DNA of 64,000 bases from Planctomycetota bacterium (GTDB lineage: Bacteria; Planctomycetota; SZUA-567; H5-PLA8), in contig JAHCJK010000007.1 in the NCBI GenBank assembly GCA_026184295.1, positions 1 through 64,000 on the forward strand. Direction: 5' to 3'. The notes beneath the pieces were generated by a model that saw only the letters and a program-made list of their open reading frames with translations, was not told where the DNA came from and did not search any database. Shown one piece after another: positions 24,458-61,721 of this stretch; position 1 is the stretch's first letter; every line of letters starts with the position of its first letter. Made by a program: the position numbers and the translations under genes.

Positions 24458-24639
24458 CAATATCCTGACTCTGGATGTCCTAAACCCCCTAAAATCGTTG
24501 CCCAATCGAACGAGTTTGTGCACTTCGTGAACCTGCACGCGAAGAAATCATATTACCTTTGAAAAAATGGTACGTTGCGCTACAACAACCGGACGTTCTT
24601 TTGCACCCAAAGCCGGTGTCGTTTTCGGGAGGTAGTCCC

Positions 24640-38529: not shown

Positions 38530-38555
38530 GTGGCGCACAAGTGAGTGTGCGCCAC
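38530..38555 (+). promoter_or_regulatory. Perfect 10-bp hairpin directly upstream of tpsB ribosome binding site
   Basis: GTGGCGCACA (38530-38539) and TGTGCGCCAC (38546-38555) are exact inverse complements around a 6-nt AGTGAG loop. The stem ends 3 nt before the GAGGA ribosome binding site (38559-38563) of tpsB. There is no T-run, so it is not an ordinary terminator; an mRNA stabiliser, attenuator or protein binding site is possible. Confidence 0.7.
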
Positions 38556-38568
38556 TGCGAGGACCTAC

Positions 38569-43317: not shown

Positions 43318-43565
43318 GCAAGGACGGCTGCCTTCCCGATGGCGTGACGCACGGCGACATCGAACGCGCGTTCCCGGCGAAATCGGGTGAGCAGTACGGG
43401 CTCGAGGCGCAGTATCGCGCGATCCTCGATCCTGTCATCCAGGCAATGCGGGCGGCGGCGGCAAACGAGGATTTGTCCGAAGAAATTCGTCATGACCTCG
43501 AAGAGTACGCGAATGGGCTCGAGGACATGATCGACGAGAAAGTCAGGGAGGCTTTCGAACCATGA
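43314..43565 (+). CDS. Hypothetical phage protein, acidic and helical
   Basis: An 83-residue acidic protein, mostly alpha-helical at the C-terminus (EEIRHDLEEYANGLEDMIDE). The start at 43314 overlaps the upstream stop, and the TGA overlaps the ATG of the RuvA-like gene by 4 nt, so it is coupled on both sides. The position directly before the RuvA-like gene suggests it might act with it, but nothing in the sequence shows this. Confidence 0.65.
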   Translation: MSKDGCLPDGVTHGDIERAFPAKSGEQYGLEAQYRAILDPVIQAMRAAAANEDLSEEIRHDLEEYANGLEDMIDEKVREAFEP

Positions 43566-44020
43566 TCGACACAATTAGTGGCGACCTGTCGTTCAACCGC
43601 GACGGCTCGCTCTGCATCGATTGCGGGGGCATCGGTTACCGGGTTGAGACCTCGAAGGAAACTCGCGATGCGCTGAAGAACATCTACCCCAACGGCGGAC
43701 CGATGAGCCGGCGGCTTTACTGCAGCGTCATGAAGCGCGAGCAGGCGCCGGACGTTCTGATCGGATTCCACACCGAGGAACTTCGGGAGTTCTTCTGTGA
43801 CCTGATCAAGACGCCCAAGGTCGGGCCACGGACCGCGCTGAACATCATGTGCCTGGGCACAGTTCAGGAACTCAAGGCCGCCATCATCCTGCAGGACATC
43901 CGCATCCTGATGCGCGCCGCCGGCGTGTCCGATCAGGTTGCGAAAAGCATCTGCCTCAAACTCTCGAAGCCCTACGCCAAGGCGCGCGGGCCTGTCGAGC
44001 TTTTCCAGGAGGAAAAATGA
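43562..44020 (+). CDS. RuvA-like Holliday junction-binding protein, truncated form
   Basis: A 152-residue protein that matches RuvA in order and spacing. An N-terminal OB-like part runs MIDTISGDLSFNRDGSLCID, CGGIGYRVE, DVLIGFHTEELREFFCDLIK. It is followed by two helix-hairpin-helix motifs, TPKVGPRTALNIM (compare NGVGPKLALALM) and AAGVSDQVAKSICLKLS (compare PGVGKKTAERLLVEL). Cellular RuvA is about 200 residues; the C-terminal domain III that contacts RuvB is missing. A stand-alone RuvA core could bind four-way junctions and guide the RusA-like nuclease encoded at 62119. Both ends overlap neighbours by 4 nt. The assignment rests on motif comparison from memory. Confidence 0.78.
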   Translation: MIDTISGDLSFNRDGSLCIDCGGIGYRVETSKETRDALKNIYPNGGPMSRRLYCSVMKREQAPDVLIGFHTEELREFFCDLIKTPKVGPRTALNIMCLGTVQELKAAIILQDIRILMRAAGVSDQVAKSICLKLSKPYAKARGPVELFQEEK

Positions 44021-44970
44021 TCAAGTACAGCATCATATGCTGCATCTACAACACGCTGCCGGTCGCACGGCAGTGCCTGGATGCGCTGCTGGCCTGTCCG
44101 CAGGAGGATGCCGAGATCATCCTGGTGGACAACCATTCGCCTGATCCAACCGTCCGCCAGTACATCCGGATCCTGCAGACGAAGCACGACAACCTCAGCG
44201 TTATCGACCCCGGCAAAAACCTGGGTTGCCATCAGGGCTGGAACGCGGGATACGCGCAGAGCCACGGCGCGTTCGTCTTCAAGCTCGACGACGACACGGT
44301 CATCAGAACGCCTGGGTTCATGCCGTACATGGCGCATGCGCTCAACCAAGTCCCTGAACTCGGCTACATCAGCGCGGACATCGACGCGAAGCAAAACAAC
44401 CCCTACGAGCGGACCGCGATCAACGGCGTCGACCTGGAGATTGCGAAGACCGGCGTTGTCGGGTTCAGCCTCGTGTGCTTCCGCCGTTCCGACGTCGAGC
44501 GTTGGGGCCCGATGCTGACCGGCACCTACCGCGCCGCGGGTGGCCGGATCATCGAGGAAGACCGGCTCTACGGCGGCGAGGAAGTTTACTACGCGTCGGC
44601 CGCGAAGAGCGAAGGAAAGCTCATCGCGCACTTCCCCGTGGTCTTCTGCCATCACCTGGACAACGCGGAGCGCGATCCCGACTACGCGTTTTGGAAGCGC
44701 GCGTACGGCTATAACGGCTGGACCGACCTCGACCTGACCACCTGGCGCGCGCATGGCCTGCACCTCAAACACTACCGCAAAGCCATCTGTCTCGAACTAC
44801 AGCGCAAGCCGATGAACGATGCGCTGCTGCTCGAGTGGGTGGGACGCATCGTTCAGATCGGCGGTCGAGACGACGTGGGCCTGGTTGACGCCGTCAAGGC
44901 AATGACCTCCAACGGCGCCGTCAAGGAGGCCTGCGACAACGCGCACAAAACCTTGGAGGCCAAACCGTGA
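44017..44970 (+). CDS. GT2-family glycosyltransferase
   Basis: A 317-residue GT-A fold enzyme: SIICCIYNTLPVARQCLDAL at the N-terminus, ILVDNHSPD for nucleotide binding, NLGCHQGWNAGYAQ, and the metal-binding DDDTV motif in FKLDDDTVIRT. AGGAGG at 44007-44012 is a strong ribosome binding site and the ATG overlaps the RuvA-like stop. It pairs with a second GT2 gene that begins at the 4-nt overlap downstream. It probably decorates virion or cell-surface glycan; donor and acceptor are unknown. Confidence 0.9.
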   Translation: MIKYSIICCIYNTLPVARQCLDALLACPQEDAEIILVDNHSPDPTVRQYIRILQTKHDNLSVIDPGKNLGCHQGWNAGYAQSHGAFVFKLDDDTVIRTPGFMPYMAHALNQVPELGYISADIDAKQNNPYERTAINGVDLEIAKTGVVGFSLVCFRRSDVERWGPMLTGTYRAAGGRIIEEDRLYGGEEVYYASAAKSEGKLIAHFPVVFCHHLDNAERDPDYAFWKRAYGYNGWTDLDLTTWRAHGLHLKHYRKAICLELQRKPMNDALLLEWVGRIVQIGGRDDVGLVDAVKAMTSNGAVKEACDNAHKTLEAKP

Positions 44971-45725
44971 AGTCGCCCAAACTCGGCATCGTGATTCCCG
45001 TGCACAACCAGATGCACGTCTTCAAGCAGTGCATGGGATCGATCTTTACCTTTCGTCCCAGCGATCAGGCCGTGGAGCGGCCCATCCGCATCTACATCCT
45101 GGATAACGGCTCGACGGAGCAGATCGAACCCGGGTCGCTGCAGGACCTCTGGGATCCCGCGGCCTTCGACGTCGAATTCACCCGGTACCCGAAGAACGTG
45201 GGCGTCACTCAGGCCTGGAACGACGGCCTTCGGAAGGCGCTGCTCGACGACTGCGACATCGTCTGCATTTCCAACTCGGACGTCATCTACGGGCCCAAGG
45301 CCATCGAGCACTGCGTTGGGGCTGTCTGGCGGCATGGCCTGGGGCTCTGTTGGCCCTTCACGAATCAGCGCGGCCCCGTTCCCGCCGACTTCCGGGCTCG
45401 CTCGCAGGAGCTCAGCGAACTCGACTTTGCCAACCCCAACTCAATCGTCGACACGGGAGGCTTCGCCGGCTGGTCCTTCTTCCTTTCCCGCGCGACCGTC
45501 GAGAAGGTCGGCTATTTCGATCCGCAGTTCACGCTCTGGTACCAGGACACGGACTACCACAATCGGCTGCACGAACACGGCATTCCGCATGGGGAAGTGC
45601 GGAACTGCCTGATCCATCATTTCGAGTCGGTGACCATCAAGGGACTGGACCGGGGTTTCGAACATCAGGGCTGGCGCGCGCGCGATGCCGAGCGGTACGC
45701 GGCCAAGTATCCGAGAAAGGGATGA
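44967..45725 (+). CDS. GT2-family glycosyltransferase (rhamnosyltransferase-like)
   Basis: A 252-residue GT-A enzyme starting at GTG 44967, which overlaps the upstream TGA. Motifs: LGIVIPVHNQMHVFKQCM, IYILDNGSTEQIEP, YPKNVGVTQAWNDGL, SNSDVIYG as the DxD-equivalent, and GWSFFLSRATVEKVGYFD followed by WYQDTDY for acceptor and catalytic residues. The NVG...WN.G and DTDY patterns resemble phage and cell-wall rhamnosyltransferases, which would fit the RmlB/RmlD-like genes later in the element. The stop overlaps the HerA gene start. Confidence 0.9.
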   Translation: MKSPKLGIVIPVHNQMHVFKQCMGSIFTFRPSDQAVERPIRIYILDNGSTEQIEPGSLQDLWDPAAFDVEFTRYPKNVGVTQAWNDGLRKALLDDCDIVCISNSDVIYGPKAIEHCVGAVWRHGLGLCWPFTNQRGPVPADFRARSQELSELDFANPNSIVDTGGFAGWSFFLSRATVEKVGYFDPQFTLWYQDTDYHNRLHEHGIPHGEVRNCLIHHFESVTIKGLDRGFEHQGWRARDAERYAAKYPRKG

Positions 45726-47642: not shown

Positions 47643-47941
47643 GCACCTGGTACGTACTACTCGCGCGCATGGGGAAAGGCCCCGGTCGCCCCCTGAACGT
47701 ATTTCCGGATGCCGAGGCCGCGCGCTGCAATGCGATCGAGTGGCGCGATCTCATTCATCCCGAGATGCGGCTGGAAGTGGCACCGTTTGAGATGCCCGAA
47801 TCTGGAGAGCCCGTCGAAGTTCCCGAGATTTCCGTACCTCAATTTCGTCCGTGCGAGAACCCCATGTGCAGCATCATTCTTCCCGTTCAATCTCCTCACG
47901 ATCATTGCTCCGAATGCAGAAAGAGCCTTCACCATGGATAA
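47639..47941 (+). CDS. Hypothetical protein with C-terminal zinc-ribbon-like cysteines
   Basis: A 100-residue protein starting at ATG 47639 (overlap with the upstream TGA; AAGGA about 8 nt before). It begins STWYVLLARMGKGPGRPLNV and ends with CENPMC...HDHCSECRK, a C-x4-C...C-x2-C arrangement that could hold a zinc ion. The stop overlaps the start of the replication initiator-like gene by 8 nt. The family is not recognised. Confidence 0.65.
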   Translation: MSTWYVLLARMGKGPGRPLNVFPDAEAARCNAIEWRDLIHPEMRLEVAPFEMPESGEPVEVPEISVPQFRPCENPMCSIILPVQSPHDHCSECRKSLHHG

Positions 47942-48860
47942 GCGCCCTGCGTTTCAGTTCTACCCCGGAGACTGGCTGCGCGACGACGTCGCGGGCTGCA
48001 GTTTGGCCGCCCAAGGCCTGTGGCTTCGCATGATGCTCATCATGCACGATGCTGCAAACTACGGCCATGTGGTGGACTCACAGGACCGACCTCTTTCCGA
48101 CGAAAACGCTGCCCGAAAGTGCGGCACCAACGTCGAAGAGTACCGCAAGCTCCTGGCCGAACTCGACGCTGCCGGCGTGCCTTCACGCCGCGAAAAGGAC
48201 CAAGCGATCTATTCCAGGCGGATGGTTCGGGACGAAAAGGAGCGTCAGAAGGTTTCCGATAACCGCAAGGAGGCAGGCAAGTTAGGAGCTTCAAAGCGCT
48301 GGAAGAATGGCAAGCGGATGGCAAACGATAGCAAGGGGCATGGCAAAGGGCATGGCAAACCGATAGCAAACGATGGCTCTTCATCTTCATCTTCATCTTC
48401 ATCTTCATCTTCAGTTAAACAGCAAACTACAACAACCCCGGCTTCGCCGGCACCGGACGATTTCGAACTCGGTGATCAACCCGAACCCGAAAGGCCAGTC
48501 AAACCGCGGGTAGCCACCGTCGATGGGTTTGTTTTTGAGTATCTCCGAAGACCTCGCGACGAGGGCGGGCTGGGTCTTTCCCCGGGCGAGGCGGCCAAGG
48601 CAGGGAACATGATCAAAGGCCGCGGCAGTCCGTGGTCGCCTCTGAAGCTCGGATGCCTGATGTACGCGCTGAATCAGCAGCCGCCTCCGCGTGATCCCAT
48701 CGCGATGGCCCTTGGACATCTGAACGGGAAAACAGCTTCCACCGCGGAGTTCGAGAAATTCGAGGACGCGGCGGCGGAGAAACTACGGCTCTGGGAAGCA
48801 CTCGCGCACAAACGCAATCAGGCAAACGGAGGATTCGGTGGAACCGGAACCGGAAGCTAA
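47934..48860 (+). CDS. Phage replication initiator-like protein (DUF1376-like N-terminus)
   Basis: A 308-residue protein. The N-terminal segment FQFYPGDWLRDDVAGCSLAA followed by QGLWLRMMLIMHDA resembles the DUF1376/YdaU-type start of phage replication organisers, usually encoded just before a DnaB helicase or loader; here dnaB follows directly with a 23-nt overlap. The middle is a hydrophilic linker with a GKGHGKP repeat and a run of twelve serines coded by six TCTTCA hexamers. The C-terminal 130 residues (LGLSPGEAAKAGNMIKGRGS) look folded and may bind DNA or helicase. The role in origin recognition or helicase loading is inferred from position. Confidence 0.72.
   Translation: MDKRPAFQFYPGDWLRDDVAGCSLAAQGLWLRMMLIMHDAANYGHVVDSQDRPLSDENAARKCGTNVEEYRKLLAELDAAGVPSRREKDQAIYSRRMVRDEKERQKVSDNRKEAGKLGASKRWKNGKRMANDSKGHGKGHGKPIANDGSSSSSSSSSSSSVKQQTTTTPASPAPDDFELGDQPEPERPVKPRVATVDGFVFEYLRRPRDEGGLGLSPGEAAKAGNMIKGRGSPWSPLKLGCLMYALNQQPPPRDPIAMALGHLNGKTASTAEFEKFEDAAAEKLRLWEALAHKRNQANGGFGGTGTGS
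48378..48413 (+). repeat. TCTTCA hexanucleotide tandem repeat, six perfect copies
   Basis: Six uninterrupted TCTTCA units inside the replication initiator-like gene encode twelve serines. Because the unit is 6 bp, gain or loss of copies would change linker length without breaking the frame. Confidence 0.95.
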
Positions 48861-50322
48861 CCCAGAGCCCCAAGTGAGCTCGAACCCGTTCGAGCGCGTT
48901 CCGCCCCACGATCGGCGGGCGGAGCGCGGCGTGCTCGGCGCCATGCTGTGCGATGGCCGCTCAGCTCAAATTGCTGATGAAGACCTCGTCCATGAGGACT
49001 TCTACGACTTGGCCAATCAGCGGCTTTTCAAACTCTTCCACGATCTGATCCAGGAAGGCCACGATGACATGGATCTCATCGTGGTCGAGGCAGAAATGGT
49101 CAAACGTCGCGTGTACGAACATATCGGCGGGAACCAATACTTGAGGCAGTTAGTCTACGATACTCCAACAGCCGCGAATATCGAACGATACATCAGGATC
49201 GTGAAGGAATTCAGTTTGAAGCGCAGGCTGATGAACCTGGCCCACAATCTCGTGAAGCAGGTCGTGAACACGGCGCCCGATTCTTCCGCGAAGGAAATAC
49301 TCGAGGAAGCAGAGCAGAAGGTCTACGACCTGGCCGCGCAGTTCAAAGGCGTCAACGATGAGCCTTCAAACCTGCAGGTGCTTGCCGATGAGATCGCCCA
49401 TAACGCGCTGAACGACATCCGGCCGCGGCCCGGGCTTCAGCTCGGCATGGCGGAAGGCGCGATCGACGACCTGCTGGGCGGGCTGGGGCTCGAGCCATTC
49501 ACCTACATCGTTCTCGCCGCGCGCACGAGCACGGGCAAGACCACGTTCTGCAGCAACGTGGCGATGAAACTGCGGGCCAACAACATCGATAGCGGATGTC
49601 CGCTGATCGTTTCGACGGAAGCTAGCCAGTATTCGATCGCGAGGCAGTGCCTGGCCGCGGCGACTGGAATTCACACGCGCGCGCTTTCTCTCTGCAATCT
49701 TACGGACAACCAGAAGGCGGCCGTAGAAAAGTCGGTCCTGGCGAAACCGCTGGACGGGATCTATTCGATTTACTGTCCCGGTAAGACCATCGCGCAGATC
49801 AGGGCGATCGCGAAGCGGCACAAGGCCTACCACGGGTTGCCACTGATGATTGTCGATCTGGCCGGCAAACTGAAAGGCAAAGGCGAGAAAGAATACGACC
49901 GCCTTTCGTACATCTCGGCGGGCCTGAGCGAACTGAAGGCAGAACTGGAAACGACGATCATCGCGTGCGTGCAGATCAGCCGCGGCGTGTTCCAGAGCGA
50001 GGACCGCCGGCCCGAGCTGCAGCACCTGAAGGGCTCAGGCGGATGGGAAGAAGACGCGGACATGGTTTGGTTCCTGCATCGTCCGGCGCATGTTTCGAAG
50101 AGCACGGACCCGAGAACGGAGGTGATCTGCGCGAAGGATCGCGAGCACGGCGATCGCGCGAACAAGTCGGTCTGGATCGAGTGGAAGGCGGCCTCGGGCC
50201 AGTACATCTGGCCAAAGGAAAATGACAACGGGGGAGAAACGGAGAAACATGCTGGCACTCAGCATCAAACAGCCGTGGGTATGGATGATTCTGGAATGCT
50301 CTTCGGACCTAAAGGACGTTGA
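48838..50322 (+). CDS. dnaB: Replicative DNA helicase, DnaB family
   Basis: A 494-residue hexameric helicase starting at GTG 48838. The N-terminal domain has the family signature PPHDRRAERGVLGAMLCDGR and DLVHEDFYDLANQRLFKL. The RecA-like domain has Walker A ARTSTGKTTFCSNVA near residue 228, VSTEASQ, Walker B LPLMIVDLAGKL and the late LKGSGGWEEDADMVWFLHR block. This is the fork helicase of the element. It overlaps the initiator-like gene upstream and the ASCH gene downstream. A second, MCM-type helicase is encoded at 55368. Confidence 0.93.
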   Translation: MEPEPEANPEPQVSSNPFERVPPHDRRAERGVLGAMLCDGRSAQIADEDLVHEDFYDLANQRLFKLFHDLIQEGHDDMDLIVVEAEMVKRRVYEHIGGNQYLRQLVYDTPTAANIERYIRIVKEFSLKRRLMNLAHNLVKQVVNTAPDSSAKEILEEAEQKVYDLAAQFKGVNDEPSNLQVLADEIAHNALNDIRPRPGLQLGMAEGAIDDLLGGLGLEPFTYIVLAARTSTGKTTFCSNVAMKLRANNIDSGCPLIVSTEASQYSIARQCLAAATGIHTRALSLCNLTDNQKAAVEKSVLAKPLDGIYSIYCPGKTIAQIRAIAKRHKAYHGLPLMIVDLAGKLKGKGEKEYDRLSYISAGLSELKAELETTIIACVQISRGVFQSEDRRPELQHLKGSGGWEEDADMVWFLHRPAHVSKSTDPRTEVICAKDREHGDRANKSVWIEWKAASGQYIWPKENDNGGETEKHAGTQHQTAVGMDDSGMLFGPKGR

Positions 50323-50674
50323 GAACCGCTCCTGGACGACGAAGAAGCGAGGATACGTCATCATCCATGCCAGCAAGTCCGTCGACCACGAAGCGCTTTC
50401 GTACCTGCGTGGCCTGGGGTTCACGCTGCCTGACGTCCTGCCCACGGGCGGGTTCGCCGGCATTACGCGCATCACCGATTGCATCCCTGCCCGGGAATCG
50501 CGATCGAAGTGGGCGGCGCATAAGGGGAACTGCCTGAAGCTCAAAGATTCGAAGCCGTTCCCGAAACTGATCCCCGGCAAGGGATTCCTCTACTTCTTTC
50601 CCGTGCCCGAGTACGTCTCCGTAGAACTCGGCCGGCTCAAGTTCTCGCTTCCGAAAAAGGGCTTTGCCGTATGA
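50249..50674 (+). CDS. ASCH-domain protein
   Basis: A 141-residue protein with the ASCH pattern: LALSIKQPWVWMILE, DVENRSWTTKKRGYVIIHAS, and GGFAGITRITDC. ASCH domains are small beta-barrels related to PUA and act on RNA or modified nucleotides; phage examples are common. The start at 50249 has GGAG 4 nt upstream and lies inside the end of dnaB (74-nt overlap). The target is unknown. Confidence 0.85.
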   Translation: MLALSIKQPWVWMILECSSDLKDVENRSWTTKKRGYVIIHASKSVDHEALSYLRGLGFTLPDVLPTGGFAGITRITDCIPARESRSKWAAHKGNCLKLKDSKPFPKLIPGKGFLYFFPVPEYVSVELGRLKFSLPKKGFAV

Positions 50675-51341: not shown

Positions 51342-52184
51342 ATGACGTATGAAGAAGCGAAGGCGAAGGCCAAGGAGGCCGGCATTCCGGACGAAGACCT
51401 GACGCCCGAGGTGATCAAGCAGTTCGGCCATACTTTCGACGACCCCACGGCGCACGTGAACCCCGGCGACCCGAAGCTCTCCGCGGAGCAGGTCAAGGAA
51501 CATCTGTCGATGCTGGCCGAGGAAGCGAAGCAGAACGCGAACGGCGCGCAGATGCTGAAACTGATCGGCAAGGTGGCCGGCGCGCTTCTGATGGTTCTGG
51601 TGCTGGTCAGCGTCTCCGGATGCGGCACGCAGTCCGAGGCCGCCACGCGGGCGACGATCGCGGAGGAAGAATCCAACCAGGCCACGTTCGAGCAGATGTC
51701 CGAACTGTGCATGGCGCAGGCCGAGGCCGCTTACGAGAAAGACATCGTCACCGCGGACGCCAACTTCGACGCGGCCGTGAAGAGCGTGACGCGCACGATG
51801 GCGGTGAAAGAGCAGCGCCCGATCACGGTGCGTACGGTCGCGCAGGACGGAACCACCAGCGAGAAGACCGAATTTCAGGAGGTGTCCGTTCAGAAGCCGG
51901 TGATCAACCCGGACACCTACAACGCGCTCTATCGGAAGAAACTCGAAGATCACGCTGCGATCGAGCGAAACCTGCAGGCGATCCGCGACAAGATCGCGAA
52001 GATCGCGCGCAATCGCGCCAACGCCCGCGCGTTGAACCAAGGCCTACGCGACTACTTTGCGCAGAAGGCCAACGCGCTGGAAATCGCGAATTCTGCGACT
52101 GACCAGCTCCTGTTGTCGCTGGAAAAGTTTCTCCCCAAGCCGAAGGACGCGCCCGCGGCGACCCAGCTCGGTCAGTCTCCGTAA
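51342..52184 (+). CDS. Membrane-associated coiled-coil protein
   Basis: A 280-residue protein. An N-terminal soluble part (AKAKAKEAGIPDEDLTPEVI) is followed by a hydrophobic helix near residues 73-92 (VAGALLMVLVLVSVSGCG) and then about 180 residues of helix-forming sequence with few aromatic residues. The SGCG after the helix looks like a lipobox but lies too far from the N-terminus for a normal signal peptide. AAGGAG precedes the ATG at 51342. A spanin-like or membrane-bound regulatory role is possible; function is not known. Confidence 0.65.
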   Translation: MTYEEAKAKAKEAGIPDEDLTPEVIKQFGHTFDDPTAHVNPGDPKLSAEQVKEHLSMLAEEAKQNANGAQMLKLIGKVAGALLMVLVLVSVSGCGTQSEAATRATIAEEESNQATFEQMSELCMAQAEAAYEKDIVTADANFDAAVKSVTRTMAVKEQRPITVRTVAQDGTTSEKTEFQEVSVQKPVINPDTYNALYRKKLEDHAAIERNLQAIRDKIAKIARNRANARALNQGLRDYFAQKANALEIANSATDQLLLSLEKFLPKPKDAPAATQLGQSP

Positions 52185-52200
52185 TTCGTATCGATACGAA
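52185..52200. promoter_or_regulatory. Perfect 16-bp palindrome
   Basis: TTCGTATC-GATACGAA is a perfect palindrome beginning directly after the TAA of the gene at 51342 and 58 bp before the Zn-protein gene. It is too symmetrical and short for a terminator and resembles a dimeric repressor operator. The half-site TCGATACGAA occurs again at 50931-50940 inside a gene. Confidence 0.6.
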
Positions 52201-52257
52201 CGCCGGGATCACCCTGCATCGTGCAGGGGCCAAGGAAACTCTGTCTCTGGTGAAACG

Positions 52258-53253
52258 ATGGCGACGAAGATCACCCTCCCCGACGCGCCTGCCCCCGCCG
52301 CAAACTTCCGCGGGATCGGCGAAGTGCGGATCAAGGAGCCCATATCCTGCGTGGTCGAAGTGCTGCGCAGAGCGCCCGTGGGGGACGGGAAGTGGGAGTT
52401 GGTGCGGCCGTTCACCAAGATTCCTGACGGCGCCAAGTATGCGTTCGCGATCATGGGCGCGACCACGTCTACCATGCTCCGCCGTGGGACAAACGAGACG
52501 CCCGCGCGGGAGCCTCATCCGAAGTTCGCGGCTTTCAATACCTGCCATCCGGACCTTGCCTCGACACTGCCTGCCAAGATCGTCCACTGGGATGTTGAGC
52601 GTGCATGGAAGTTTCAACTGGGTGCCTACCAAGCTCCAGTGTCGGGGCAATCTCCTGAAGCCGGCTGGTGGTGTCGCGGGGATGGTTGTAACGCCATTCG
52701 ATTCGTCGATGGGCAGTTCAAGGCCATTCCTTGCCCAGCTCGGAAGTGCGAGTTTCAACAGGAGCGCTTCGGTAAAAACGGCGATCAGCCGCACTGCAAG
52801 CCCAATCTCTCGTTGATCGCCCAGTTCGCTTGGAGGGATGGGTCTCCGCTGCCGCGCACTGTTTTCCAATGGGATTCCAAGTCGTGGAACAACTACGGCT
52901 CGCTGGAAGGCATGTTCCGCCTGATTGACGAGACCGCAGTGCAGATGAAGTTGATCGAGCCCGGCAAACACTTCCCCGTCCTGGCGCTTCCTTTCACGCT
53001 GACGCTCAAGGAAACCGTCAAGAAGCGCCGGAAGTTTCCCGAGGTGCACGCATCCATTGAAGGCGATCCGCACGAGTGGATGCAGAAGATGCTCAACACG
53101 ATGCATGCGCCCGCGCCGACCGCGCTTCCCTACAGCGAACCCATGCCGCTTCGCGAGCTTCCGCCCGCCGAAATGTCCCAGGACGACGTTGATCGCGCCT
53201 CCGAAGCGGCCCTCAACCCCGAGTACAGGCCTGCGAATAACCGGAGCCGCTGA
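52258..53253 (+). CDS. Zn-binding phage protein, Gp3 / recombination-directionality-factor-like
   Basis: A 331-residue protein with a cysteine/histidine cluster (WWCRGDGC, IPCPARKC, HCKPNLSLI) likely to bind zinc. The order CP..KC...HCKP followed by a beta-rich domain resembles phage proteins annotated as Gp3-like or recombination-directionality factor-like; this is a memory-based comparison of modest weight. It heads the recombination module: its stop overlaps the nuclease start by 1 nt (TGATG). It may bind DNA junctions or switch integrase direction. Confidence 0.6.
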   Translation: MATKITLPDAPAPAANFRGIGEVRIKEPISCVVEVLRRAPVGDGKWELVRPFTKIPDGAKYAFAIMGATTSTMLRRGTNETPAREPHPKFAAFNTCHPDLASTLPAKIVHWDVERAWKFQLGAYQAPVSGQSPEAGWWCRGDGCNAIRFVDGQFKAIPCPARKCEFQQERFGKNGDQPHCKPNLSLIAQFAWRDGSPLPRTVFQWDSKSWNNYGSLEGMFRLIDETAVQMKLIEPGKHFPVLALPFTLTLKETVKKRRKFPEVHASIEGDPHEWMQKMLNTMHAPAPTALPYSEPMPLRELPPAEMSQDDVDRASEAALNPEYRPANNRSR

Positions 53254-54482
53254 TGTATTCGCCTACGCAGCTCAACATCTTTCTCGACAACTGCCCGGGC
53301 GCGCTGGCGTTTTACCGCGCGGAGAAGGCGGAGCAGAAGGTCGATCTCGAAGCGGACGGCGCCAAGGCCCGCGACGTCGGCATTGCGTTCCACGTGTGCT
53401 GCCACCAAGCGGCGCTCGCGGCGAAAGAAGGGAAGCCGCGCATCCCTGCGGTCGAAGCCACGGCCCTGGTCATGGCGCAGAAGATGCCCGCCGACTGGGC
53501 GCGGGAGGCCGCGGACCTGGCGCTCGAATTTCTGATGCGCTGGGAATTCATCGAGACCATGCAGTACGAGCACGGCATGGCCTTCGACGAGAAATGGCGC
53601 GAGGTTGAATGGGAAAGCGAGCAGCGCCGGCTCCGCCTGGTCTTCGACATCGTCGGGATCCTGCAACACCAGGATGAAGTCTACGGCGACCTGAACGTCG
53701 CGACCGCGATGGACTACAAGAGCGGGTGGGGCGCTTCTTCCGACGACCTCGACAGCCCCCAGGGCCTGGCGTACTCGACGGTGCTGTACCACCTGTACGA
53801 GGCCGAGGTTGACGCCATCGAAGTGCAGATCCTCGCCGTTCGAAAGAACCGGACGTTCAAGAAGCGATGGATGCTGGACAGCGAGGAAGACGTCGCTGAT
53901 CTGCACCGCCGCGAAGCCCGCCTGCAGTTCTACATGAAGACGGCCGACGTGACCGAGCTCAAGCCGCGCGTCGGCTTCGGTTGCTCCCAGTGCTCGTACA
54001 CCGCGCAGTGCGCGCTCTTTCAGGAACGGCTCAAGAACGCCCGCGATTCCCGCCTGATCGAAGAGCCCGAGGAGGCCGCGAAGGACCTCGTGGTCCTCGA
54101 ACGGCGCGTGGATGAACTGAAGGAAGCTCTCAAGGCCATGTGTAAGTCGCGCGGCCCGGTGGTCATCGACGGCATGGCGTTGGGCTTTCACGAGACCACG
54201 GAACGCAAGTTGAATGACGCCGGGAAGCTGGTGGATCTCTGGTTCGATTCGGTGGAGGGGGTGAAAGACGACCCCGAGCGCGCGATCGCCGCCTGCCGAG
54301 GTCTCTTCAAGGCGATGAAACCAGGCGTCACGATGGCCACCGAGATGGTTCGGACCATGGCCGCATCGCTCGGCTTCCCGACCAAGAAAGCGGCCGAGGA
54401 AGCCTGGATGCCCAAACTGTGCGATGAGGTTCCCAAGACGAAGTTCGAATGGAAGCGGAACAGTGAAGAGCCTGCTGACTGA
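53253..54482 (+). CDS. Cas4/RecB-like PD-(D/E)XK nuclease with iron-sulphur cysteines
   Basis: A 409-residue exonuclease-like protein. The N-terminus YSPTQLNIFLDNCPGALAFY carries the first Cys (residue 14). The nuclease core has an Asp in LVFDIVGIL and the DYK motif in AMDYKSG near residue 153. Three further cysteines lie in GCSQCSYTAQC near 242-252, completing the Cas4/AddB-type iron-sulphur staple. C-terminal 130 residues are helical and of unknown role. It probably resects DNA ends for phage recombination, near an HU protein and an acidic-tailed protein that could bind single strands. Confidence 0.85.
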   Translation: MYSPTQLNIFLDNCPGALAFYRAEKAEQKVDLEADGAKARDVGIAFHVCCHQAALAAKEGKPRIPAVEATALVMAQKMPADWAREAADLALEFLMRWEFIETMQYEHGMAFDEKWREVEWESEQRRLRLVFDIVGILQHQDEVYGDLNVATAMDYKSGWGASSDDLDSPQGLAYSTVLYHLYEAEVDAIEVQILAVRKNRTFKKRWMLDSEEDVADLHRREARLQFYMKTADVTELKPRVGFGCSQCSYTAQCALFQERLKNARDSRLIEEPEEAAKDLVVLERRVDELKEALKAMCKSRGPVVIDGMALGFHETTERKLNDAGKLVDLWFDSVEGVKDDPERAIAACRGLFKAMKPGVTMATEMVRTMAASLGFPTKKAAEEAWMPKLCDEVPKTKFEWKRNSEEPAD

Positions 54483-54729: not shown

Positions 54730-55368
54730 ATGGTGAAGGAAACTGACGGGGACGCAGGGGAAACCAAGAAGGAAGACGGTCAACAGGGCTTCGCCGTCAT
54801 GGAGTTCCTGCGCAAGAAGTGCCGGTACGGCGTGGTGATCAAGAACTTCAAGGGCAAGTACAAGAAGATCAAGAACACCGCGGACAGCGCGCGCACCAAG
54901 ATGATTGACATCGAGGTCGACGTGCCGGTCACCAAGGCCATCAAGAAACGGCTCGATCCGGCGGTCGCCGCGCTCATCGAAGCTGCCACGGGCGAAGGGC
55001 GCACGATCGAACTCCCGCTCAGCTCCATCGACATCGCGATGGAAGTGCCGTGCATCGTGCGACTGTGGTCCAAGAAAAACTACAACAAGGATTCGAGACC
55101 CAAGCACGTCTGCGGGCTGGGCAACGGCGACTCGGCGGTGGTGCGGACCAAGAAGGTCTTCATCAAGGACCACCAGGCATACCTTCGCCTGCTGATCACC
55201 ACCACCGGGACCGAAGATCTCTGGGCCTGGGGCTGGAATGTCTTCGACGAGAGCGAAATCGTCATCGAGACGGAACCGCTTCAGAAGGATCTGCCTTTCG
55301 AAGGCGGCGACAAGCCCGCCGAGAAGGACGGAGACGACGACAGCGACAAGGAAGACGACGAAGCCTGA
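54730..55368 (+). CDS. Hypothetical phage protein with SSB-like acidic tail
   Basis: A 212-residue protein with a strong ribosome binding site (AAAGGAG, 54718-54723 region). The central part (residues about 35-180) is beta-rich and basic (FKGKYKKIKNT, LWSKKNYNKDSRPK). The C-terminal 35 residues are very acidic (DDDSDKEDDEA), a layout typical of single-strand DNA-binding proteins that recruit partners by their tail. It lies between nuclease/HU and the TOPRIM-MCM protein, with a 1-nt overlap downstream. An SSB or annealing role is inferred only from layout and context. Confidence 0.65.
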   Translation: MVKETDGDAGETKKEDGQQGFAVMEFLRKKCRYGVVIKNFKGKYKKIKNTADSARTKMIDIEVDVPVTKAIKKRLDPAVAALIEAATGEGRTIELPLSSIDIAMEVPCIVRLWSKKNYNKDSRPKHVCGLGNGDSAVVRTKKVFIKDHQAYLRLLITTTGTEDLWAWGWNVFDESEIVIETEPLQKDLPFEGGDKPAEKDGDDDSDKEDDEA

Positions 55369-58355
55369 TGCCCGATTACACCGAGCTCCATAATGCCGTG
55401 ATGGCGAAGATGGATTTCAAATCCTTCTTTCGCCATCTCGGCTTGGAGCTGTTTCCGGACGACAAGGTCGATCCGGATGGCTGGGTCCTCGCGCGTGGAT
55501 GCACCTTCACGCGCGGGGAGATCTACGTGAATATCGGCGCCCATGCCGGCGGGTGGCGCGAGCCGATCACCAAGGCCGATGGAACCATCTACCAGTTCGT
55601 CAACCGGCAGATGAACAGGGCGCCCGACGACGCGGTCGCCGCGCTGCGCGTGATGTGCGAGTACGTGGGCGTTCCGTTCGGCGACGAAGATATTCCCAGC
55701 GCCGATTCGGCCATGGTAGTCACGCCCGCTGCGTGGTCGAAGTTCTGGGTCGAAAAGGAATCGAAGGAACGGTTGCGCGTCACCGCGGGCATTACACCCC
55801 AGACGTGCGAGCGGTACCAGATCGGATTTGGGAAGATCAAAGGCCGCCCCTATTTCCTTGTGCCCGTACCAGACGAAGGCGGTCGCATCCGCGCCATCCG
55901 CATGATCGACGAGAACTATTCAGGTCGGTGGATGCGGCGCTTCCCAGAAGGCGGGCCGCTCGAGATGTCGCCCAAGATTTTCGGGCTGAACGAACTCAAG
56001 ACCCGGAACTGGAAGAACGTCATCATCTGCGACAACGAGTTTGACCGCATTCTCCTGATGCAGGAGCTCAAGAACGACGAATGGGGCGCGCTTTCCCTGA
56101 CCGATGGATGGGTACGCGGCTGGAACAGTTTCCTTGAAGGGCGCCACGTCGTACTGTGCTTCTCCACCTTGCCCAAGACGTTCTACGCCGCTCAGTCGAT
56201 CGTGGGACCGTTGATCGACATGGCCAGGCGCGAGGAAAAGATTCTCGGACTGAAGTTGTTGAAACTGCCGCTGGCCGACACGCCCGAAGACTGCCGGGTC
56301 TATCATTGGTTCAAGGGCGGCGGCACGACTGCCAACCTGATGAAGCTGATCCACTGGGCTCCCGAGTATTCGATCCCAGGCCGGAAGTGCGCGAAGGATC
56401 AGGTCAAGGCGCTGGTCTCATTCGCGGAGATCGAGGACCCGAAGAACTCCGACCTGCATGTGCGCGTGCCGCTGACGGTGATCGGCGAGACGGCCACGAT
56501 CTACGATTCTCCGACGAAATTCCGGGTTGCGCACTGCCAGCGGATTCAGGACGGGAAGTGCAACGAGTGCCTGGACGAAACCTTTTCGATCGACGTCGGG
56601 CGCGACGAACATCTTGAGGCTTGCGGATCGAGCAAGGCGCACATCGAGAAGCTGTGCCAGCGCCTGTGCTGCCGTTGGAAGCAGCATCCCACGATCGAGA
56701 TTCTCGAGAAGGGCACTTTTCGCGAGGTACTGAGCACGCAGTACCACCAACGTTTGGTCGATCGCCCGCACGAAGAGCACGAGAATTTGATGATCGACGG
56801 CAGGTACGAACGGCAGATTCAGCGGAAGGTCGTCGTTCGCGTGCCCGAGGGACAGCCAGAGCCGATCCAGCCGCGCGGGTACATGGCCACGGGATGGATT
56901 CGCACGAACCCCAAGAACAGCGCACGCACGATGATCGTTGAATCCCTCGAGCCGATTCCCGAGCCCTACGAGGATTTCAATTTCAAATCGAACCTCGATC
57001 ACCTGATGTACCTGAAGAGTCTCGGTTGGTCGGCAATCACGCAGGACCTGATCGAGCATCGGACGCAGATTTACGACTGCGACGAGATCATCCTGATCAA
57101 CCTGCTGACGTACTGCTCTCCGCTGCATATCAATTTCCTGGGCGAACAGGGCATTCGCGGATGGGTGACAGCGGCCATCATCGGCGATACGGGCGTTGGC
57201 AAATCGAGGACGTTCGAAAAGCTGAGCGAGATCATTGGGATCGGAGACATCTTCTCCTGCAACTCGGGGCGCCGTACCGGCCTGACGTATGCCGTGGTGA
57301 CGCTCGACCGGAAGTGGACGTGCCAAGCAGGACTCCATCCGCTGAACACGCGCAAGATTTTGTGCGTGGAGGAAGCCCAGGAACTTCCGCGCGAAGAATT
57401 GAAGTCGATGGGCGAGGCCATGGAAAAGGGCCAGCTCAACATCAATCAGGTCGCGCGTGAATCGTACGAAAGCAAGACGCGGATCATCTTCAACTCGAAT
57501 CCGTTGGGCGGCCGGACGCTCGAGCATTACCCGTACGGATGCATGACGCTGAAGGAGCTTTTCGTGCCGGCGTTCATCCGCCGCCTGGACATGGTGGCAT
57601 TCATCCGAAAGCTGGACGATTACCAGAAGTACAACGAGCGCCGGGTCACCAACGCGCAACCGAAGGTCAGCCAGGAAGCTTTGCGCGCGCTGGTATTCTT
57701 CGCCTGGAGTATCCCGCCCGAACGCATTCAGTTCGAGGACGACGAGGCGATACTTGCCGCGGCCAATCGACTTAGCGCGAAGTATGGGCACTGCGATGAC
57801 CTTCCACTGGTCCTGCCCAGCGTCTACCGGAAGACCATCGCGCGCCTGGCCGCGGCGTGGGCGATCCTTGACCTATCGTCCAAGGATGAACTGCAGACGA
57901 TCAGCGTGACCCCCGGACACGTGAACTTGGTTGAGAAGTTTCTGGACGGACTCTATTCGGCAGAGGCGTGTGCGCTGGACCGATACTCCGACCTTGCCGT
58001 TCGCCAGCGTTCGATGGACGACTACCGCGCCCTCGAGGTTGAGCTGAAGGGTTGGCTGGATCCCAAACGGGACCGTGCCGATCAAGGCTACAACCCGTAC
58101 GGGAAACTGCTGTACTGCCTTTCGATCGGCACGAGCTACAACCGCCGCGATTTGAACAGGATGGTTGGAGTTTCGGACGCCTGGATGGCGTCTGCCCTGG
58201 CGACGTTGGCCGCGCATTACCTGATCACGGATGGCGAGGGCGGGCGCATCAGCATCACCCCGAAGTACCAGCGGTTCTTCAAGGAATTCGAACGAAAGAA
58301 TCCTGTCGAATCCGGAGTCATTCGCGCGAGCGGAAAGGTGGAACTCAATGCGTGA
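55368..58355 (+). CDS. TOPRIM (primase-like)-MCM helicase fusion protein
   Basis: A 995-residue multidomain protein. Residues 1-110 resemble the DnaG zinc-ribbon region without its cysteines (FKSFFRHLGLELF, IYQFVNRQMNRAPDDAVAAL). Residues about 130-300 resemble a DnaG-type RNA-polymerase/TOPRIM domain, but the EGExD motif reads DNEFD (near 222) and the DxD pair is absent (VVLCFSTLP near 260), so primase activity is doubtful. Residues about 360-480 look like an MCM OB fold with zinc cysteines (AHCQRIQDGKCNEC). The AAA+ domain has Walker A GDTGVGKSR near 606, GLTYAVVTLDR, Walker B KILCVEEAQEL near 662, GEAMEKGQLNINQVARE and sensor IIFNSNPLGGR, all in MCM order. A winged helix follows near 910-968. 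It overlaps both neighbours by 1-8 nt. Confidence 0.82.
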   Translation: MPDYTELHNAVMAKMDFKSFFRHLGLELFPDDKVDPDGWVLARGCTFTRGEIYVNIGAHAGGWREPITKADGTIYQFVNRQMNRAPDDAVAALRVMCEYVGVPFGDEDIPSADSAMVVTPAAWSKFWVEKESKERLRVTAGITPQTCERYQIGFGKIKGRPYFLVPVPDEGGRIRAIRMIDENYSGRWMRRFPEGGPLEMSPKIFGLNELKTRNWKNVIICDNEFDRILLMQELKNDEWGALSLTDGWVRGWNSFLEGRHVVLCFSTLPKTFYAAQSIVGPLIDMARREEKILGLKLLKLPLADTPEDCRVYHWFKGGGTTANLMKLIHWAPEYSIPGRKCAKDQVKALVSFAEIEDPKNSDLHVRVPLTVIGETATIYDSPTKFRVAHCQRIQDGKCNECLDETFSIDVGRDEHLEACGSSKAHIEKLCQRLCCRWKQHPTIEILEKGTFREVLSTQYHQRLVDRPHEEHENLMIDGRYERQIQRKVVVRVPEGQPEPIQPRGYMATGWIRTNPKNSARTMIVESLEPIPEPYEDFNFKSNLDHLMYLKSLGWSAITQDLIEHRTQIYDCDEIILINLLTYCSPLHINFLGEQGIRGWVTAAIIGDTGVGKSRTFEKLSEIIGIGDIFSCNSGRRTGLTYAVVTLDRKWTCQAGLHPLNTRKILCVEEAQELPREELKSMGEAMEKGQLNINQVARESYESKTRIIFNSNPLGGRTLEHYPYGCMTLKELFVPAFIRRLDMVAFIRKLDDYQKYNERRVTNAQPKVSQEALRALVFFAWSIPPERIQFEDDEAILAAANRLSAKYGHCDDLPLVLPSVYRKTIARLAAAWAILDLSSKDELQTISVTPGHVNLVEKFLDGLYSAEACALDRYSDLAVRQRSMDDYRALEVELKGWLDPKRDRADQGYNPYGKLLYCLSIGTSYNRRDLNRMVGVSDAWMASALATLAAHYLITDGEGGRISITPKYQRFFKEFERKNPVESGVIRASGKVELNA

Positions 58356-59832
58356 CGAACGGGATGTTGAAGCGGCCAACAAGCGAGCCCTGGTCTGCGC
58401 GGAGGGCGACCTCGACGAACGTGAAATGACACGATTCGAGATCGAAGATCGGGCGCCGTACCACGTCCTGCGCATCCTGAACGGCGCGCAAATCCGGGCC
58501 GCTGCGGACCCGAGCGCAGACGAGATTCTGTGTGAAGGGTCCTGCTACGTCGTCTCGAAGGATGCGAGCGCGATCTACCAGCGCATCGCGGCGAAGATTC
58601 AAGCGGAAGTTCTTTCGATGAACGGCATCGTGCATCCCTTCGGCGTCGAATCGACGATCCGCATCCTCGACAGCGCCATGAGCAGCGCGCGCACCGAATG
58701 CAAAGTTCCGCCTGAGAAACTGCGGGTACTGTTTCTTCGCAACGGGGATGGTGGATGCGCGTTCTATCGCACGGTCCAGCCCGTCTTTGAACTGACCCAG
58801 ATGGAAGACGTGCCGCTATGGGCCGAAGAAAATAGTTTCCTCACCTACCGATTGGGTCGGAACTACGATGTCATTGTGGCACCGCGCATCGCAGATGCCT
58901 TCACCATCTCGGTGCTGCGCTCGCTGCAGCAGGCCAAGAAGGTCATCATCTATGAGACCGATGACCTTCTCTCGAACATGCCGAACTGGAATCCGTCCAA
59001 CGAACACAATACCCCGGAGACGCAGGTTCGCCGCGAGTTCTTCACGAAGATGGCCGATGCATGCATCGTTTCGACTGAAGAACTGAAAGATTATCTCAAG
59101 CGGCCGGACTCCACTTGGGTTTGCCACAACGGGATCAACGCCAACCTGTGGCCTTTGCGCGCGGTCAAGCAGGACGTTGGTACCGTGCGCATTCTTTGGG
59201 CGGGCTCTTCCAGTCATGAAGGCGATCTGCAGATCGTGGCCAAGGTGATCCGCCGGCTGATTGCGCGATTCAAGGAACGCATTCAGTTCCTGTTTGCCGG
59301 ATGCATCCCCAACGAGTTCAAGCAACTGACGCGCAAGCAGAATGGAACGATGGCGGAACGCGTGCATCCCGATCTCGAGAAGAACGTGAAGTTCATCGGC
59401 ACGTCCACGCCCTGGGACTGGCCGCGACTGGTCGAGGGCGCGCAGGCCAACATCGCGATCTCGCCGCTTGAGATACATCCCTTCAATGAGTGCAAGAGCG
59501 AACTGAAGGTCCTGGAGGCTTGGGCGGCGGGTCTGCCGATCGTGGCGACCCGGATCGCGCCGTACATGCGAGCGATCGAGGACGAATCCCAGGGCCTGCT
59601 TGTCGAGAACAGCACCGAGGCCTGGGAGGTTGCGCTGACGCACCTGATCACCAAGCCAGAGGAACGACTTCGCCTGGCCGAGAACGGCCTGAAGCGACTG
59701 ATCGACCGTTACCTGATGCCGCGGATCGCGCGCGAGTACGAGATCGCGCTGTATTCGATCGCGGCTGGCAAGGTCATGCGCCCGGAGTGCAACGAGGCGA
59801 TGGCCAAGAGACTGAAGGAGATCGCATCTTGA
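58348..59832 (+). CDS. GT4-like glycosyltransferase with extra N-terminal domain
   Basis: A 494-residue protein. Residues 1 to about 120 are an unrecognised domain (EIEDRAPYHVLRILNGAQIR, GSCYVVSKDASAIYQRIA). From about 128 a GT-B glycosyltransferase follows: LRVLFLRNGDGGCAFYRTVQ, YETDDLLSNMP, VRILWAGSSSHEGDLQIV, and the C-terminal FNECKSELKVLEAWAAGLPI donor-binding block. The start at 58348 overlaps the end of the MCM gene by 8 nt. It begins the second glycan group of the element, followed by RmlD- and RmlB-like genes. Confidence 0.85.
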   Translation: MRDERDVEAANKRALVCAEGDLDEREMTRFEIEDRAPYHVLRILNGAQIRAAADPSADEILCEGSCYVVSKDASAIYQRIAAKIQAEVLSMNGIVHPFGVESTIRILDSAMSSARTECKVPPEKLRVLFLRNGDGGCAFYRTVQPVFELTQMEDVPLWAEENSFLTYRLGRNYDVIVAPRIADAFTISVLRSLQQAKKVIIYETDDLLSNMPNWNPSNEHNTPETQVRREFFTKMADACIVSTEELKDYLKRPDSTWVCHNGINANLWPLRAVKQDVGTVRILWAGSSSHEGDLQIVAKVIRRLIARFKERIQFLFAGCIPNEFKQLTRKQNGTMAERVHPDLEKNVKFIGTSTPWDWPRLVEGAQANIAISPLEIHPFNECKSELKVLEAWAAGLPIVATRIAPYMRAIEDESQGLLVENSTEAWEVALTHLITKPEERLRLAENGLKRLIDRYLMPRIAREYEIALYSIAAGKVMRPECNEAMAKRLKEIAS

Positions 59833-60704
59833 AAATTCTCATCGTCGGCAAAGGACACCTGGGCACCTACCTGACCAAGGGGCTGGACGTGCCTGGTTGG
59901 GATGTGATCTGGCACCAGGGGATGATGGAAGAACTCACCGTCGCCGCGCTGCGGGCCATCGGGCCCTTCGTCATCGTGAACACCGCGGCAAAGACTGACA
60001 TCGATTGGTGCGAGCAGCATCCGCACGAGGCATGGCGAAACAACGTGGTCGAACCGCTGCGCCTCTTCAAGCGCTCGCAGAACGTGCTCCCGATGCGCGG
60101 TATCTACATCCACATCTCGTCGGGCTGCATCTGGGACGGGCCGTATGACGAGAACGGGAAGGCGTTCGAGCCGAACGATTTTCCCCAGCCGGCGTGTTTC
60201 TACACCTGGACGAAGGCGGCGTGCGATGCACTGCTGCTGCAGGAAGCGAAAAATACCAACCTGGCGATCATTCGCTTCCGCCAGTTGTATTCGAGCCTGC
60301 CTGGCTTCGGACGGAACATCCTCATGAAGCTGATGGGGTACGAGAAACTGCACGACAATCCGAACAGTATGTGCAGCGCCGAGACGGTCCTGCATACCAT
60401 TTTCGTTATCACCGAGTTTAAATTTTCACTACCGCGCATCATCAATGTTTACGAAACGGGCGTGCTTTCCCCTTACGCCGTTGCGCAGAAGTTGGCTGCA
60501 GCATCGTTGCGCCAGAGTCCCGTGCTGGCCACGAAAGGGGACCTGGACAAAGAGCCCAGGACCCGTCGCGTAGATACGGTGCTGCGCGACGACGCGTTTG
60601 AGCGCATCGTCAAGCCGATAGACGTTGGCACGATGGTCGAAAAAAACATCCGTCTTCTGAAGATGGAACTGAAGCTGGCCGCAGAGCAACCCAAGAAAGC
60701 CTAG
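59829..60704 (+). CDS. RmlD-like dTDP-4-dehydrorhamnose reductase / NAD-dependent sugar reductase
   Basis: A 291-residue short-chain dehydrogenase of the extended type, starting at TTG 59829 which overlaps the GT4 stop (TTGA). It has MKILIVGKGHLGTYLTKGL for NAD(P) binding, VNTAAKTDIDWCEQHP (matches the RmlD INAAAYTxVDxxE block), ISSGCIWDG (the STDYVFDG equivalent) and the YxxxK pair in FYTWTKAACDA. RmlD makes dTDP-L-rhamnose from the RmlB/RmlC product. With RmlB next door, a phage-encoded deoxysugar supply is likely; RmlC was not found. Confidence 0.82.
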   Translation: MKILIVGKGHLGTYLTKGLDVPGWDVIWHQGMMEELTVAALRAIGPFVIVNTAAKTDIDWCEQHPHEAWRNNVVEPLRLFKRSQNVLPMRGIYIHISSGCIWDGPYDENGKAFEPNDFPQPACFYTWTKAACDALLLQEAKNTNLAIIRFRQLYSSLPGFGRNILMKLMGYEKLHDNPNSMCSAETVLHTIFVITEFKFSLPRIINVYETGVLSPYAVAQKLAAASLRQSPVLATKGDLDKEPRTRRVDTVLRDDAFERIVKPIDVGTMVEKNIRLLKMELKLAAEQPKKA

Positions 60705-60731
60705 CAGGCGATTTCAACCGGGAGAGCAACC

Positions 60732-61721
60732 ATGAACATTCTCGTGACGGGCGGCGCCGGCTTCATCGGACGGGCCTTCGTGAAGAAGGCCCTGCGAGAA
60801 GGGAAAGGTCGGGTCATTGTTCTCGATGCCCTGACCTACGCGGGGGACGTGGACAACCTCCGCGAGTTCGCGCCGTGGGCTGCGCTGCGCATCGGCGACA
60901 TCTGCGACGGGCAACTCGTGCGGAGCATCCTGCAGGAGGAACGGATCGACGCGATCGTGAACATCGCGGCCGAAAGCCACGTGGACCGATCGATCGAGAA
61001 CAGCATGCCGTTTATCAAGACCAACGTGGTCGGCACGGCCACGCTGCTGGAGGCGGCGCGGAAGATCAACCCGAAGATCCGGTTCGTTCAGGTCTCGACG
61101 GATGAGGTGTACGGCGAGGTGGAAGACGGCCAAGCGTTCCATGAAGGGATGCGTTTACGGCCGAGGAATCCCTATTCCGCGACCAAGGCCGCAGGGGACG
61201 TGCTGGTGCTGAGCTACTGCAACACCTACGGGACGAACGCCGTGATCACGCGGTGCTCGAACAACTACGGGCCGTATCAGCAGGCCGAGAAGTTCATCCC
61301 GAAATCCATCGTTGCGCTGCTGCGCGGCCAGAAGATCAAACTGCACGGCGACGGCCAGCAGATGCGGGACTGGATCCACGTCGACGACCACGTCAGCGGC
61401 ATCTACAAGGCCATGCTGAGCGATAAGCGCGGGCAGGCGTTCAATTTCGGCTCGGGCGAAAGCCTGGCCAACGTGACCGTCGCGCGCGCGATTCTCGAGT
61501 GCCTCGGGTATGGGGGCGAAGAGGCCTGGATCGAGTACGTCGCCGACCGGCCCGGGAACGACAAGGCCTATCGGATGAACAGCTACTACGCCCAGGTTCA
61601 TCTCGGCTGGACGCTGGATGTGCAATTCAAGGAAGGGCTGAAGGCGACGATCGATTGGTACCGGGAGCACCGGGAGTGGTGGGACAAGGTGGGGCTGAGC
61701 GCTTTCTACGGAGCACGCTGA
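60732..61721 (+). CDS. rmlB: dTDP-glucose 4,6-dehydratase-like protein
   Basis: A 329-residue extended SDR enzyme: ILVTGGAGFIGRAFVKKAL, LDALTYAGDVDNL, NIAAESHVDRSIENS, VSTDEVYGEVEDG, the catalytic YSATKAAGD (YxxxK) and CSNNYGPYQQAEKFIPKSI. These match RmlB, which converts dTDP-glucose to dTDP-4-keto-6-deoxyglucose. AGAG-type ribosome binding site upstream (gggagagcaacc). It is separated by 27 bp from the RmlD-like gene and overlaps the next gene by 1 nt. Phage copies of rml genes usually serve surface or virion glycosylation. Confidence 0.92.
   Translation: MNILVTGGAGFIGRAFVKKALREGKGRVIVLDALTYAGDVDNLREFAPWAALRIGDICDGQLVRSILQEERIDAIVNIAAESHVDRSIENSMPFIKTNVVGTATLLEAARKINPKIRFVQVSTDEVYGEVEDGQAFHEGMRLRPRNPYSATKAAGDVLVLSYCNTYGTNAVITRCSNNYGPYQQAEKFIPKSIVALLRGQKIKLHGDGQQMRDWIHVDDHVSGIYKAMLSDKRGQAFNFGSGESLANVTVARAILECLGYGGEEAWIEYVADRPGNDKAYRMNSYYAQVHLGWTLDVQFKEGLKATIDWYREHREWWDKVGLSAFYGAR

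Follow-up and report, generated by a model that had tools for sequence, protein, structure and literature searches.

Animal Twinkle has a TOPRIM primase half that is without zinc cysteines and catalytic residues, while its fold and its helicase are retained (PMC3610141). In bacteria, MCM is found fused to an archaeo-eukaryotic primase (AEP) in the MCM-bearing members of PrimQH (PMC5862659), and the Cch and Cch2 helicases of the staphylococcal cassette chromosome mec (SCCmec) are MCM-like, unwind DNA in the 3'-5' direction by experiment, and are accompanied by a separate primase, an A-family polymerase with MP (PMC7581432). The window analysed here comprises 64,000 nucleotides of a Planctomycetota bacterium (assembly GCA_026184295.1, contig JAHCJK010000007.1, positions 1 to 64,000, forward strand). 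Within a prophage it carries a gene, present in a single copy in this genome, that joins a DnaG-like N-terminus with a degenerate primase site to an MCM helicase unit, MCM being the DNA-unwinding motor characteristic of archaea and eukaryotes. The loss of primase chemistry is well supported by the sequence. The product is probably a tailed-phage TOPRIM-MCM primase-helicase that lost priming and was kept as a DNA helicase of MCM type, its DnaG-like N-terminus serving as a platform without catalysis, and priming being handed to host DnaG through a phage DnaB.

Phage TOPRIM-MCM primase-helicases (Wollypog gp50, contigs of IMG/VR and, by its MCM part, Sparcetus gp51) have the same order of zinc domain, TOPRIM, OB, AAA+ and C-terminal region, and are homologous to the fusion over most of its length. 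Unlike it, they retain the EG-E-x-D motif, DxD and, in all but a few cases, the CHC2 zinc site, and their records contain no DnaB. Twinkle resembles the fusion in its dead primase half, which is homologous and ranks second among the PDB matches to the N-terminus of the fusion; Twinkle and T7 gp4, however, are driven by a RecA-fold, DnaB-type motor, which is not homologous to the AAA+ MCM motor here, and the comparison therefore concerns only how the proteins work. The AEP-MCM proteins of Bacillus phages and plasmids, together with PrimQH, likewise combine an MCM motor with a primase in bacterial mobile elements, their MCM part being 28-29% identical to that of the fusion, but their primase half is archaeo-eukaryotic and unrelated to TOPRIM, whereas the N-terminus of the fusion is DnaG-like. 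Cch and Cch2 are also MCM-like helicases of a bacterial mobile element, but have no fused TOPRIM half.

Judged from sequence and model, the N-terminal half descends from DnaG and has degenerated in this protein. The model of residues 1-345, built on an alignment with 39 family members, has a mean predicted local distance difference test score (pLDDT) of 82, and its dependence on the intact relatives in the alignment calls for caution on the fold. Among PDB structures, Aquifex DnaG (2au3; zinc and polymerase domains) is the top match (E 2e-12), followed by human Twinkle (2.2e-9), T7 gp4 (1.7e-8) and several DnaG cores; the viral structures matched are phage DnaG/Twinkle-type primases, and a profile of the fusion family recovers the same PDB entries by sequence. 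Residues 117-265 match PHROG 239 (DNA primase/helicase, E 3.9e-6), and the half searched alone gives no Pfam match at E<=0.1. A Pfam scan of 40 family members detects Toprim_2 in 38 and Zn_ribbon_DnaG in 37, and neither in this fusion. Searched with a profile of the four Planctomycetota members, almost all genomes of the class yield a protein of DnaG size that is presumably host DnaG.

The catalytic positions are compared across about 48 relatives that cover the TOPRIM region. In motif I, E222 is present in 47/48 and G223, E224 and D226 are each present in 48/48; in motif II, D266-x-D268 is found in all 48 that have the region. At these positions the fusion carries D-N-E-F-D and S-T-L, and a relative from the genome G004 carries D-S-E-F-E and T-P-E, with the zinc cysteines gone from both. 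The fusion therefore has neither the CHC2 zinc ligands nor the catalytic Glu and DxD metal ligands of an active primase. Among the proteins compared, all catalytic and zinc features have been lost only in the fusion and the 40%-identical G004 protein. TOPRIM primases require both DxD and the zinc site, and since both are missing, primer synthesis by the fusion is very unlikely.

The C-terminal part is assigned to MCM. Pfam MCM covers residues 572-754 (E 7.9e-13; score 48.5 bits, cut-off 23.3) and is the sole Pfam family above its own cut-off in the protein, which rules out a placement of the AAA+ part with sigma54 activators or MoxR. When the sequence is searched against the PDB, the matches are MCM2 to MCM9 and archaeal MCMs, with MCM2 at the top, and the PHROG matches are 18685 (unknown function, E 1e-56) and 10371 (DNA helicase). 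The motifs include Walker A GDTGVGKS (606-613), the RTGLTYAVV block, Walker B ILCVEEAQ, NSNP and RRLD. Walker A, sensor 1 N711, the arginine finger R738/R739 and sensor 2 R821, a position retained in most relatives, supply the residues that define the family. Walker B departs from the family pattern: the DE found in 47/49 relatives is EE in the fusion and in the G004 protein. This Asp to Glu change is conservative and is also seen in two other relatives, and the MCM half is otherwise well preserved in both proteins. Four invariant cysteines point to an OB-fold zinc site of MCM type. In a full-length structure prediction from 9 sequences (mean pLDDT 60.6), the AAA+ core is poor, with residues 597-762 below 50, so that MCM membership rests on the profiles and not on the full-length model.

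The sequence-only reading had proposed one frame joining a DnaG-like N-terminus to an MCM unit, and this is upheld by the 995-aa open reading frame (ORF), by Pfam and PDB for MCM, and by PHROG 239 and the DnaG fold for the N-terminal half. Its zinc ribbon without cysteines, DNEFD motif (222-226) and absent DxD (STL, 266-268) agree with the alignment to intact CHC2 relatives, and its list of MCM motifs, from Walker A to a wing-like C-terminus, is recovered in full. The OB zinc cysteines it described are present, but lie at C390-C419, slightly downstream of the quoted residues 365-405.

The G004 protein is a full-length homologue from another genus of the same family. Intact fusions are encoded in two more Planctomycetota genomes, G087 and G213, and dozens more occur in viral contigs (L020-L033, L064-L112), many of them in IMG/VR, on several deep branches; the fusion is 30-32% identical to intact members across about 970 residues. 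Arthrobacter phage Wollypog gp50, annotated ‘DNA primase/helicase’, is an intact CHC2-TOPRIM-MCM fusion, with which Microbacterium phage Sparcetus gp51 clusters in the MCM tree. The earlier statement that the described MCMs of bacterial mobile elements are paired with an AEP-type primase and not with TOPRIM does not hold as a generalisation, as intact fusions of this kind are widespread in phages. In the MCM-core tree, the fusion and the G004 protein are sisters (support 100/99), are joined by the intact L069 (100/86), and fall within a larger intact group (96/75). Because the degenerate pair forms one clade nested among intact relatives, the simplest reading of the tree is a single shared loss of priming, old rather than a recent decay, and not a new fusion type. 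Recent pseudogenisation is ruled out by the open frame and the degenerate state common to both proteins, and an assembly artefact by the independent second copy in another genome. A single scan of genome contigs returned only the G004 contig, and scans of viral contigs for close relatives, with the fusion alone or with a two-row alignment, found nothing.

AEP-MCM proteins stand at two places among the TOPRIM-MCM proteins of the MCM-core tree. The two kinds thus do not form two clean branches, pointing to a possible exchange of the primase half, TOPRIM or AEP, on the MCM motor; the Paenibacillus larvae protein and L109 have long branches, and their placement is unsafe. The former, encoded on a plasmid (L003:4414-7206), is a TOPRIM-MCM protein with AGEKD (Ala for the catalytic Glu), an intact DxD and an EE Walker B, and is possibly a separate primase loss. 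Partial degeneration is seen in L100 and L101, where most zinc cysteines are missing and EGEWD and DxD are retained; among the relatives, only these two are short of most of the cysteines besides the degenerate pair.

Each of the two prophages with a degenerate fusion has a gene for an initiator-like protein and, in the same slot before a PHROG 3193 homologue, a RecA-fold helicase separate from the fusion. In a whole-record search of phage and plasmid records with other MCM fusions, DnaB is found in 0/12 and 0/38, that is 0/50, one of these records (W03) having AEP-MCM. The intact fusions of G087 and G213 adjoin genes for terminase and Dda/RecD, and nothing DnaB-like is matched within 20 kb; each whole genome has a confident DnaB on another contig, and the G213 contig has one sub-threshold match more than 50 kb away. 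The genome studied here has the prophage DnaB and two others elsewhere. Prim-Pol is found neither in this genome nor on the G004 prophage contig. The only TOPRIM-type match in this genome besides the fusion is presumably host DnaG, and no second primase is recognised in the genome beyond it.

Recruitment of host DnaG by DnaB is an established route in DnaB systems. From the phage DnaB with its N-terminal domain and the initiator-like gene, we infer that priming was handed over to host DnaG: the initiator would load the phage DnaB, and DnaB would recruit host DnaG for priming. The MCM part would assemble into a ring and use ATP to unwind DNA, and beside DnaB it could act at the fork, in origin melting or in recombination restart. 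The dead primase half, to guess from its retention, may bind single-stranded DNA or partner proteins and couple or regulate the motor, a role that the N-terminus of animal Twinkle, likewise dead as a primase, may share; the best local partner candidate would be the acidic-tailed protein of the adjoining upstream gene. A further reading, nearly as likely as not, is that the Twinkle transition took place a second time, independently, in this phage lineage and with another motor: an active TOPRIM-MCM protein would have lost priming once, its phages would have gained a DnaB-type helicase and an initiator that use host DnaG, and the dead half would have been retained to regulate the MCM ring by binding DNA or partners.

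Several points weigh against a retained helicase with handed-over priming. The RecA-fold helicase is a true DnaB in this prophage, whereas Pfam does not identify that of G004 as DnaB, and the two are not orthologues. The DnaB contrast is weakened by the fragmentary state of many of the 50 records, and the DnaB association is one evolutionary event, counted once because the two phages have one common ancestor. The contig ends at 67259 and so does not show the whole phage. With Glu for Asp in Walker B, ATPase activity of the fusion is not assured. The acids D222, E224 and D226 remain, and residual metal binding is possible. Finally, the N-terminal half diverges faster than it does among intact relatives, which would be expected under relaxed constraint no less than under a new role.

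This divergence bears on whether the primase half is merely decaying, without function, in a defective prophage. Between the fusion and the G004 protein, identity is 29% in the N-terminal half and 50% in the AAA+ core, a ratio of about 0.6 against near 0.9 in intact pairs of the same clade with similar core identity, the ratio being widely spread across the whole family (5th percentile 0.52). Decay would account for the faster change, but the frame is fully open in two genera at 40% identity overall and 32% in the TOPRIM part, the predicted fold is confident, and two 25-residue windows, with first residues 217 and 229, show about 52% identity (patch residues 217-253), making simple decay the least probable of the explanations considered. 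With a lower ratio, yet conserved windows and a kept frame, the constraint on the dead half appears relaxed, not gone. Since frame, fold and conserved patch persist in a homologue of this distance, the conversion of the primase half into a DNA-binding or regulatory domain is plausible. The same patch holds motif I, is among the best conserved N-terminal parts of the two proteins, and leaves three acidic side chains, from which it could be argued that the TOPRIM half still primes through the non-canonical ligands D222, E224 and D226; with DxD and the zinc site missing in both proteins, and D-x-D invariant in 48 relatives, this is very improbable.

A less remote alternative, though still unlikely, is that the fusion is no longer a fork helicase: DnaB would drive the fork, and the MCM fusion would serve as a recombination or restart helicase with the PD-(D/E)XK nuclease, the Gp3-like protein and, in G004, RuvC. 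The Gp3-like and PD-(D/E)XK neighbours are conserved, RuvC adjoins the G004 copy, and a second helicase of replicative type is present. However, recombination genes also adjoin intact fusions, in records without DnaB, and the neighbourhood is thus not distinctive.

The prophage setting that the sequence-only reading proposed is confirmed by a terminase gene, which identifies the island as the prophage of a tailed phage, and by the sister prophage with integrase and tape measure. Near 43 kb, the GC content at third codon positions, about 0.9 until there, decreases to about 0.75, and the island extends to the contig end; the contig ends show no overlap when compared, so a circular phage genome is not supported. 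The island carries genes for a HerA-like ATPase, the initiator-like protein, DnaB, the PHROG 3193 protein, the Gp3-like protein, the PD-(D/E)XK nuclease, an HU-like protein, the acidic-tailed protein, the fusion, a glycosyltransferase, sugar epimerases and terminase (Table 1). By ORF analysis the fusion is open for all 995 codons from ATG to stop. Its ATG and the stop codon of the preceding gene overlap, and the in-frame ATG of the glycosyltransferase gene lies inside the fusion end, which together indicate a tight operon. The upstream 212-aa protein has no Pfam or PHROG match, is seen only beside the two degenerate fusions, and is a candidate single-stranded DNA-binding (SSB)-like protein or helicase partner. 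The G004 prophage contains an integrase, a primosomal protein, a RecA-fold helicase, the same order around the fusion, a deoxynucleoside monophosphate (dNMP) kinase and a tape measure protein; its counterpart of the initiator-like gene matches PHROG 9327 (primosomal protein, E 5.8e-21).

Table 1 Features of the fusion gene and of the surrounding prophage genes.
Feature	Position	Strand	Residues and evidence
TOPRIM-MCM fusion gene, degenerate primase half	55368-58355	+	995 aa; ORF and translation, Pfam MCM, PHROG 239 and 10371
DnaG zinc-binding-domain fold without zinc cysteines	55368-55685	+	residues 1-106; alignment with intact CHC2 relatives; fold match 2au3, weakly 1d0q
TOPRIM RNA-polymerase-domain fold	55710-56372	+	residues 115-335; model pLDDT 82; PDB matches DnaG, Twinkle, T7 gp4
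Degenerate TOPRIM motif D222-N-E-F-D226	56031-56045	+	EGE[W/F]D in relatives
Site of lost DxD, S266-T-L268	56163-56171	+	D-x-D in 48/48 relatives having the region
MCM OB-domain zinc cysteines C390, C398, C401, C419	56535-56624	+	invariant in 4 Planctomycetota fusion proteins compared
MCM AAA+ core	57030-57662	+	residues 555-765; Pfam PF00493, conserved columns
Walker A; Walker B (VEE); sensor 1 N711; Arg R738/R739	57183-57206; 57357-57374	+	inside AAA+ core
MCM lid and C-terminal helical/wing-like region	57663-58352	+	residues 766-995; R821 conserved in most relatives, predicted helices
Replication-initiator-like protein	47709-48860	+	weak PHROG replisome organizer
Phage DnaB-type helicase, N- and C-domains	48838-50322	+	Pfam DnaB_C E 1.7e-38, DnaB N E 2.7e-22
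PHROG 3193 gene, after RecA-fold helicase in both prophages	50222-50674	+	PHROG, synteny
Gp3-like (recombination directionality factor-like) protein, syntenic	52057-53253	+	Pfam PF18897 at cut-off; 40% to G004
PD-(D/E)XK nuclease, syntenic	53253-54482	+	Pfam PF12705 E 2.1e-9; 37% to G004
212-aa protein, acidic C-tail	54730-55368	+	directly upstream of fusion; synteny
Glycosyltransferase overlapping fusion end, syntenic	58348-59832	+	Pfam; 39% to G004
Terminase large subunit	63315-64220 (past the 64000 window end; to 64223 in the contig)	+	PHROG 2 E 3.3e-12

Glycosyltransferase and nucleotide-sugar epimerase genes occupy two segments inside the prophage, 43849-45725 and 58348-61721, and a short RuvA-like protein (RuvA N-domain and HHH) is encoded at its left edge, 43562-44020. 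Upstream of the island, an ORF of 3661 aa (24559-35544) has no Pfam match; near it lie a gene for a ShlB/POTRA-type outer-membrane transporter (38545-40290) and a kinase-FGE-sulfatase fusion (35617-38445), and its product is a possible two-partner secreted protein.

The component parts of the fusion are known, and the TOPRIM-MCM fusion itself is common in phages. In the literature searched, neither a primase-dead TOPRIM-MCM clade nor TOPRIM-MCM fusions at all were found; the search was incomplete and an earlier mention is possible. MCM in bacteria is usually discussed as the AEP-MCM of a few phages and plasmids, and the about 48 members collected here make up a broad phage TOPRIM-MCM family. 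In conclusion, Planctomycetota prophages contain both active and dead versions and thereby offer a natural experiment on the reasons for fusing a primase to a helicase and for keeping a dead half, and the purpose of a dead primase half is a question that animal Twinkle raises too.

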